From NCBI GenBank assembly GCA_036924855.1, contig JBAGRP010000001.1:3348001-3412000 (forward strand): a stretch of DNA of 64,000 bases. Reading direction: 5' to 3'. This DNA comes from Nitrobacteraceae bacterium AZCC 2146 (GTDB lineage Bacteria > Pseudomonadota > Alphaproteobacteria > Rhizobiales > Xanthobacteraceae). The notes beneath the pieces were generated by a model, which did not search any database, was not told the DNA's origin, and was given only the letters and a program-made list of their open reading frames with translations. Positions 20,914 through 31,996 of the stretch are shown here, in pieces (position 1 is the stretch's first letter; each line of letters starts with the position of its first letter). The position numbers were made by a program, and so were the translations under genes.

Positions 20914-21052
20914 GGTCGGTCCTTGAAGCTGAAATGCCCGCGCAAGGGCTCATGGAACAGGGCGGGATGCAAGTTGATCTCGTGTAAAACCCCCTTGATG
21001 TCATCGCCCGGCTCGACCGCGCGACCCAATAAACACTAATGCCTGCGTGTAC

Positions 21053-21082
21053 TGGATCACCCGGTCAAGCCGGGTGATGACA
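21053..21082. repeat. GGAT-CCGG-TCAAG-CCGG palindromic repeat upstream of polA
   Basis: TCACCCGG (21057-21064) and CCGGGTGA (21070-21077) are perfect arms around TCAAG, preceded by TGGA and followed by TGACAG. The same layout (GGAT, G/C arm, TCAAG, G/C arm, then A-GAC) occurs at the two ends of the GIY-YIG unit at 24239-24603, so these look like members of one dispersed family. Confidence 0.55.
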
Positions 21083-24234: not shown

Positions 24235-24238
24235 AAAT

Positions 24239-24603
24239 GTCGTTGCCGGGCTTGACCCGGCAATCCATCATCTTCGGATGAGCTATTGGGTTTACATCCT
24301 TGCCAGCAAGCCGGGTGGAACGCTTTATGTCGGCGTGACCAATAACCTTGTTCGCCGCGTGTTCGAACATCGGGAAGGACAGGTCGCAGGCTTCACCAAG
24401 AAATACGGCGTGAAACGACTGGTCTATTTTGAAGCGCACGACACCGTCATCGCGGCGATACAGCGTGAGAAGAACATCAAGCACTGGTCTCGCGAATGGA
24501 AAATCGATCTGATCGTGTCCATCAATCCGGAATGGCGCGATTTGTATGATGATATTGTCCGCTAGCGCGGACGATGGATGGCCGGGTCAAGCCCGGCCAC
24601 GAC
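24239..24603. mobile_element. GIY-YIG unit bounded by inverted palindromes
   Basis: Two 31-bp sequences in inverted orientation (24239-24269 and 24573-24603) bound a single GIY-YIG gene. Each is itself a hairpin: TTGCCGGG-CTTGA-CCCGGCAA on the left, TGGCCGGG-TCAAG-CCCGGCCA on the right. Aligned in one orientation they differ at two positions only, and these are the two partners of one base pair (T:A against G:C), so the stem is kept. The 365-bp unit has no other gene and I see no target duplication. Mobility is inferred. Confidence 0.55.
24278..24565 (+). CDS. GIY-YIG nuclease-domain protein
   Basis: A 95-residue single-domain protein of the GIY-YIG (UvrC/URI-like, YhbQ-type) family. The core is visible: WVYILAS (GIY position), TLYVGVTNN (YIG position), the catalytic-type Arg in LVRRVFEHREG, and the metal-ligand Glu in IQREKNIKHW, with the usual C-terminus EWKIDLI...PEWRDLYDDI. 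It is a compact domain with no extra DNA-binding region. It is enclosed by inverted palindromic repeats, and a remnant of a paralogue occurs at 31817-31957, so it may belong to a repeat-associated family rather than act as a housekeeping repair enzyme. Confidence 0.92.
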   Translation: MSYWVYILASKPGGTLYVGVTNNLVRRVFEHREGQVAGFTKKYGVKRLVYFEAHDTVIAAIQREKNIKHWSREWKIDLIVSINPEWRDLYDDIVR

Positions 24604-25316: not shown

Positions 25317-25321
25317 TCTTC

Positions 25322-25505
25322 CCCCTCCCCCGCGCTTGCGTGGGGAGGGTGGCCGGCCGCCAGGCCGGTCGGGTGGGGGTAGCGCCACATCGACAGCGGC
25401 GCGTGTGGCGCTACCCCCACCCGTCACGTTTGTTCGCTTTGCTCTCAAACGCGCCACCCTCCCCACTGCGCGCAGCTTTGCTGCGCTTGGAGGAGGGAAA
25501 AGAAA
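25322..25505. repeat. Nested long palindromic repeat block
   Basis: The gap between the LysE gene and the GST gene is almost entirely inverted repeats. A 19-bp perfect pair lies at 25371-25389 and 25404-25422 (arm starting GGGTGGGGGTAGCGCC, 14-nt loop). A 14-bp perfect pair, GTGGGGAGGGTGGC, lies outside it at 25340-25353 and 25453-25466. Smaller hairpins (CGTTTG...CAAACG, CCCCCTCCCCCGCG...TGGGGAGGG) fill the rest. The flanking genes converge. It resembles the composite palindromes common between genes in Bradyrhizobium relatives. Confidence 0.7.
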
Positions 25506-31800: not shown

Positions 31801-31996
31801 CGTCGTCCCGGCGCGCCTCGTTCATATCGAGGAATTCACTTCGGTCATCGAAGCGATCACCCGCGAAAAGCAGATCAAGAACTGGAAGCGGGATTGGAAA
31901 ATCGAGTTGATCGAGCGGGATAATCGGGATTGGAGCGACCTGTCCCATCTTCTTTAAAATCGGTGGTTATGGGTCCCGGCGTTCGCCGGGACGACG
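31801..31996. mobile_element. Decayed GIY-YIG unit with 13-bp inverted ends
   Basis: A fragment of a GIY-YIG gene is bracketed by CGTCGTCCCGGCG (31801-31813) and its exact reverse complement CGCCGGGACGACG (31984-31996). The right copy belongs to a full palindrome, GTCCCGGC-GTTC-GCCGGGAC (31973-31992); the left copy is cut off just after its first half-arm and joins straight into the gene fragment. The layout matches the intact unit at 24239-24603, but with another palindrome sequence. An internal deletion from the left palindrome to mid-gene explains it. Confidence 0.5.
31817..31957 (+). pseudogene. C-terminal remnant of a GIY-YIG gene
   Basis: The 46 codons before the TAA at 31955 encode LVHIEEFTSVIEAITREKQ then IKNWKRDWKIELIERDNRD then WSDLSHLL. 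This lines up with residues 48 to the end of the intact GIY-YIG protein at 24278-24565 (REKNIKHWSREWKIDLI). The GIY and YIG motifs and the catalytic Arg are missing, and no start codon fits. It is a truncated paralogue, not a working gene. Confidence 0.8.

Follow-up and report, generated by a model that had tools for sequence, protein, structure and literature searches.

The closest described relatives of the palindromes studied here are the CGTC-tagged REPs, a superfamily defined by Di Nocera, De Gregorio and Rocco (2013; PMC3733652). These repeats carry a CGTC tag, which in many is changed to TGTC or CCTC, an 8–9 bp stem, a 4–5 nt loop and a CCA tail, and the consensus has A-T at stem positions one and two. 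They are mostly dimeric, often with two slightly different members paired, they are known from five phyla, and dRS3 of Neisseria is a member. In that paper the CGTC REPs are described as apparently having no dedicated transposase, associations with other transposase genes are described as just a few and fortuitous, and the authors left open what moves the repeats. The GTAG-class REPs, on the other hand, are stated there to possess RAYTs.

The window, meaning the whole stretch of 64,000 nucleotides that was analysed, contains a GIY-YIG nuclease gene placed between two such palindromes. Gene and palindromes together probably make up a single unit of the CGTC superfamily, with a REP at one end and an inverted REP at the other, in which the protein would be the dedicated nuclease of its own repeat family.

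The window element and its palindromes

The features of this element, and of a second, decayed one in the same window, are collected in Table 1.

Table 1. Features of the two GIY-YIG elements, in window coordinates.
Feature	Position	Strand	Details
GIY-YIG nuclease gene, REP-associated clade	24278..24565	+	95 codons, predicted catalytic residues intact
Left REP palindrome, tag outward	24239..24272	+	TGTC 24238-24241; stem 24243-24250 with 24256-24263; loop CTTGA 24251-24255; tail CCA 24265-24267
Right REP palindrome, inverted, tag outward	24570..24603	-	CGTC 24604-24601; stem 24599-24592 with 24586-24579; loop CTTGA
Second element: truncated GIY-YIG remnant with REPs of a different family on either side	31811..31945	+	
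Partial left REP of second element	31801..31813	+	CGTCGTCCCGGCG
Intact right REP of second element	31968..31996	-	CGTC tag, 8-bp stem, 4-nt loop, CCA tail

The window protein is a single 95-residue domain matching PF01541 at 5.4e-16, and no NUMOD or other added Pfam domain was found in it by the same Pfam domain search. Residues Y17, G19, R27, H31 and E64 are invariant in 45 sequences and Y6 is present in at least 90%; the catalytic assignment of GIY-YIG residues beyond the published motif description is our assumption.

A sequence-only reading of this DNA had reported 31-bp inverted repeats around a 95-residue GIY-YIG gene. The gene and its flanking pair were recovered, but the inverted arms measure 34 nt rather than 31 bp; they are 91% complementary and 297 nt apart, and the start and stop of the gene lie only 4–5 bp from them. 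The hairpin with an 8-bp stem and a 5-nt loop that was claimed for each end was confirmed by folding, each arm folding alone on either strand (z -3.8 to -4.9), and the compensatory T:A to G:C difference between the ends is indeed seen, at the second stem pair (left T:A, right G:C). The pair has the features of CGTC REPs, with a TGTC tag on the left and CGTC on the right, an 8-bp stem, a 5-nt loop and a CCA tail. The outermost stem pair of the window REPs is degenerate, with both arms reading GTCGT and pairing G with T, where many relatives read GTCAT..AT.

Within the window, the palindrome has two matches at up to 3 mismatches, with 0.21 expected and 1/100 shuffles reaching two, so the pair is not a chance occurrence. 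Its exact 16-bp core occurs in the 7.64-Mb genome only at the two arms of the element, with no spread beyond it; the 17-bp core is present in 120/148 family genomes, with up to 100 copies. At up to 2 mismatches the 16-bp core gives 58 matches in its own genome and the reversed pattern gives 37, so that many of the looser matches are background.

Other repeats are also present in the window. A lone CGTC-type REP at 21051-21081 on the minus strand, GTCATCACCCGGCTTGACCGGGTGATCCAGT, resembles the repeats flanking GIY-YIG genes in sister genomes (L040, L044, L062). Behind a LysE-like gene, at 25317-25500, there is an imperfect inverted repeat, GGTGGGGGTAGCGCCAC and its complement, which by eye is another repeat type.

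Gene, repeats and genomic sites

The association of gene and repeats was scored as the best inverted match between the 220 bp upstream and the 220 bp downstream of a gene, with a flank score of at least 16 counted as flanked. In a first set of 80 relatives, picked by protein similarity alone and including broken genes, 65 were flanked, compared with 0/124 other ORFs of the same loci and 7/2023 shifted windows; chance as the origin of the pairing was ruled out by these two controls. A wider set from Pseudomonadota, which was non-random (28 best-hit loci and 80 regions hand-picked down the match list, several per genome) and may overlap slightly with the first, gave 74 flanked loci out of 106 scored and 0/36 other ORFs. 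Two of its 108 loci were left out, L264 being too short and L274 a 10-base region, and the remaining 32/106 fell below 16, some with no visible repeats. A strong excess of palindromes near GIY-YIG genes of this clade, on which the sequence-only reading had staked its proposal in advance, was thus found in both sets. Stems of at least 8 bp occur in 225/394 flanks vs 30/280 control flanks. The association of gene and repeats is general in the clade of the window protein.

It also extends to plasmid-collection loci, of which 8/10 score at least 16 (10 of 36 records, with 250-bp flanks), among them loci from Neisseria gonorrhoeae, bracketed by dRS3, Planktothrix (Cyanobacteriota) and Spirosoma (Bacteroidota), whilst a Zixiibacteriota locus (L144) has a flank score of 21.5. 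Phage carriers are represented by three records, at 38–40% identity. The window's own genome has five GIY-YIG loci, three with a full repeat pair, one with a truncated arm in its pair and one with a single repeat; only the window copy of the gene is intact, with the other four showing a stop, frameshift, decay or truncation.

The window element sits behind polA. It is absent from behind polA in 17 other genomes of the genus, in which there is also no GIY-YIG hit within about 5 kb of polA, and its closest relatives within this genus, at 77% and 80% identity, lie on contigs other than that of polA. In two relatives (L153, L155) the gap behind polA is occupied by a toxin-antitoxin-like module, which we take to be of HigBA type. 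Requiring a match on both flanks places the 80 relatives at 52 sites, an upper figure owing to short contigs (matching either flank gives 41 groups, with the window counted), and by this test the window shares its site with none of them; the GIY-YIG loci are not a single orthologous site, which the sequence-only reading had named as a ground for refutation. Vertical inheritance also occurs, since 27 of the 80 relatives, mostly Bradyrhizobium, share one site. From this shared site, 165 pairs gave a median dN/dS of 0.07 (median dS 0.9), which shows purifying selection.

At another Bradyrhizobium site, two genomes (G191, G521) have the gene-bearing unit, a third (G434) has a repeat pair of that family with no gene inside, and different repeats are present in others; the gene is present in 1/29 relatives' loci examined here, out of 195 genomes matched. 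The comparison of empty with filled sites that had been proposed came out in part, with this Bradyrhizobium site holding a gene-less pair, a gene-bearing unit or neither, but with no clean empty site for the window copy, as the stretch downstream of polA in the 17 relatives is too variable to place a junction. Four loci (L316, L319, L322, L324) have GTAGGATGGGT-type, GTAG-like repeats at the intergenic site of the G191 unit. Separately, in L276 at 1950-2216, two things recur beside the GIY-YIG unit, a stretch resembling the upstream gene's end and one more copy of the repeat, a repetition that is possibly a trace of repair-mediated copying.

No target-site duplication was detected in 105 elements, the direct identity of the outer flanks being not above that of permuted ones. 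This hallmark of a classical insertion sequence is missing, and classical transposition is not indicated.

Repeat copy number is linked to the presence of the gene. Across 148 family genomes, GCCGGGCTTGACCCGGC has a median count of 14 in the 18 genomes with a cognate gene (one at 70% identity or more among the matches listed), 7 in the 101 with another GIY-YIG hit and 1 in the 29 with no hit. For a second motif, GTCATTCCGGGNCGCG, the window's genome gives 82 matches against 0 for the reversed control, and this motif is commoner in genomes of the genus with a cognate gene (8 vs 10 genomes, p 0.013); the cognate classes for GTCATTCCGGG (8 vs 10 genomes, p 0.013) were assigned by reading flank listings, with the cognate copies of G000 being broken, and the copy-number p-values (0.013 and 2e-5) ignore kinship between genomes. 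Genome G002 has just 8 GTCATTCCGGGNCGCG matches, two of which flank its GIY-YIG gene. Genomes G631, G692 and G250 have 27, 17 and 13 REP copies with no window-protein hit among the matches listed, G250 having one weak match (1.4e-9) to a broader GIY-YIG alignment, and these high counts are read as remnants.

The alternative that survives best is that a free-standing GIY-YIG homing endonuclease invades REP pairs, such that the repeats are its target, rather than the ends of a unit, and are not spread by the nuclease. GIY-YIG homing enzymes exist, and both a repeat pair found with or without the gene at one Bradyrhizobium site, which does not decide the matter, and the lack of target duplication in the 105 elements would be in keeping with such an enzyme. 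GIY-YIG homing enzymes typically bear extra NUMOD domains, whereas the window protein is a single domain; additionally, no split spacer is seen in the window, because the repeats lie so close to the start and stop codons, and a higher repeat copy number in genomes with the gene is not predicted for a pure invader of repeats. Homing of this kind is considered unlikely.

If the protein is instead the nuclease of its own repeat family, as preferred here, the palindromes would be extruded, either as cruciforms or, in single-stranded DNA, as hairpins. The GIY-YIG protein would recognise a hairpin bearing the (C/T)GTC tag and the CCA tail, and would cut beside it. Host repair could then copy or rejoin the cut unit elsewhere, by which both the gene-bearing unit and gene-less REP pairs (REPINs) may spread and stay alike. 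What the analysis shows directly is the anatomy of the unit, its restriction to one clade, the cognate matching, purifying selection, the link to copy number and the variation between sites; recognition, cutting and copying are inferred, copying by repair being suggested by the lack of target-site duplications. In a Legionella evolution experiment, eleven mutation hotspots are described as intergenic regions adjoining a GIY-YIG nuclease family protein (PMC12308824). These hotspots fit active flanking repeats, but may also be a read-mapping effect.

Clade specificity and matching of repeat to protein

The repeat association is specific to one clade of small GIY-YIG proteins. A distant single-domain group, here called YhbQ-like, provided the comparison, and none of 30 YhbQ-like genes reached a flank score of 12; these came from 30 of 40 genomes that were selected for having the YhbQ-like clade only and were unmatched for repeat content. 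As these genomes had been selected for absence of the REP clade, a matched control was added, comprising 20 genomes with both clades and 21 REP-clade loci from 17 of them (manual count). In this control the YhbQ-like genes again gave 0/20 at a score of at least 12, compared with 10/21 at 16 or above and 12/21 at 12 or above for the REP clade, a flanking rate that is lower than in the first and wider sets, though the contrast with the YhbQ-like genes persists. In a tree of 91 proteins, 56 REP-clade proteins, including weakly flanked ones, form one group (support 100/99) and the 30 YhbQ-like proteins stand apart (support 96/78). A C-terminal motif, N..W..[LIM], is found in 176/188 of the REP clade and in 0/30 of the YhbQ-like proteins.

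A third small GIY-YIG lineage was observed in the window's genus (L050, L051, L059-L061; 30–36% identity). All five loci are flanked, with scores from 18.5 to 27.5, by inverted repeats of another kind, of the CCTGAGG...CGAAGGATG type, and this is perhaps an independent pairing of gene and repeat.

Repeat families differ widely among elements and match within one element, and the type of repeat tracks the protein, not the host genome. Across 143 elements with flank scores of at least 16, which were taken after 28 ids had been marked for exclusion as duplicates or as belonging to one orthologous site, and in which some arms have two repeats, protein identity correlates with repeat similarity (Mantel rho 0.42, 0/999 permutations). 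Proteins at least 70% identical in different genomes have similar repeats, with means of 0.76 and 0.83 for the similarity in two bins. Among paralogs within one genome at below 60% identity (17 pairs), the repeats differ roughly as much as they do between different genomes. Mere genome background as the source of the repeats was ruled out by this coupling together with the matched control, in which YhbQ-like genes of genomes with both clades were scored.

It is also conceivable that the hairpins serve the gene by terminating its transcription or stabilising its mRNA, and that the nuclease works in DNA repair in the manner of UvrC. COG2827 genes in Caulobacter have been discussed as possible repair nucleases, one with an SOS box, and REPs are described as able to act in RNA, but such a role leaves the matched inverted pair on both sides, the cognate coupling and the dispersed gene-less pairs unexplained, and we regard it as very unlikely. 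A further alternative is that the nuclease gene is a passenger, REP pairs being widespread cassettes of intergenic DNA that have caught many different genes between them, in keeping with the many dispersed REP copies in these genomes. This is most improbable given that no other ORF of the same loci is flanked in either set, that YhbQ-like genes are unflanked even in genomes with both clades, and that repeat type tracks the protein.

Searches with PF01797 (RAYT) gave no match in 17/18 genomes of the genus, the window's own included, and 0/11 in the best assemblies, with the eighteenth genome having one hit barely above the cut-off (23.3 vs 23 bits); as a positive control, the model matched in 5/14 control genomes. 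RAYT as the mover in this genus is unsupported. That the REPs are moved by RAYT or another transposase, with the GIY-YIG gene just riding along or trimming repeats, borrows from the GTAG-class precedent but is hardly credible when GTCATTCCGGGNCGCG is held by all 18 genomes and the published links of CGTC REPs to other transposase genes are so few.

Comparison with known systems

The GIY-YIG clade is proposed here as the missing enzyme of the CGTC REPs, which would make it an unrelated analogue of RAYT. Whether the whole superfamily, including dRS3 of Neisseria, is mobilised by a GIY-YIG nuclease of one domain, in Pseudomonadota and (with one locus each) Cyanobacteriota, Bacteroidota and Zixiibacteriota, is a broader claim to which we give an even chance. 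In the literature searched, which comprised no preprints and few subscription papers, no description of this clade as the CGTC REP enzyme was found. The sequence-only reading knew one case; the arrangement is frequent and belongs with repeats of an already described superfamily to which no enzyme had been assigned. That interpretation is upheld in part, namely in the palindrome excess at genes of the clade, the multiple sites and the REP-RAYT-like architecture.

A cognate nuclease gene between paired repeats makes the mover of CGTC REPs directly testable, and would point to two or more separate origins of REP systems, each with a nuclease unrelated to the other. Proteins whose annotation now goes no further than 'GIY-YIG nuclease family protein' or 'excinuclease ABC subunit C' would thereby gain a role. 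A GIY-YIG transposition engine, if true, would differ from the DDE, HUH, tyrosine and serine types.

Among mobile elements, the GIY-YIG homing endonucleases (I-TevI type) share the catalytic domain and the character of a selfish unit, whereas no NUMOD or other added domain was found in the window protein and its unit is bounded by hairpin repeats. The YhbQ/UPF0213-like proteins share the domain with the window protein and are of similar size, but they form a separate tree group that has neither REP flanks (0/30; 0/20) nor the N..W..[LIM] motif. With the CGTC REP superfamily, the window REPs share the (C/T)GTC tag, stem, loop, CCA tail and the dimer of slightly different members, and dRS3, one of its members, brackets a GIY-YIG gene of the window protein's clade in Neisseria. 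The differences are that the outermost A-T stem pair is degenerate in the window copy, and that the superfamily was published with no dedicated enzyme, for which a gene is proposed here.

The REPtron, a RAYT (TnpA-REP) with GTAG REPs and REPINs, has in the same way a nuclease gene between cognate inverted REPs, with gene-less pairs elsewhere. The REP-RAYT analogy drawn by the sequence-only reading is supported by this architecture, by the gene-less repeat pairs, by cognate matching and by the scarcity of RAYT hits. The window unit is not a member of the REPtron family, because its GIY-YIG enzyme is unrelated to the HUH Y1 enzyme of RAYT and its tag is TGTC/CGTC rather than GTAG; additionally, several units of different repeat families occur here in one genome. 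By analogy, the window unit is best described as a GIY-YIG counterpart of the REPtron for CGTC-tagged REPs.
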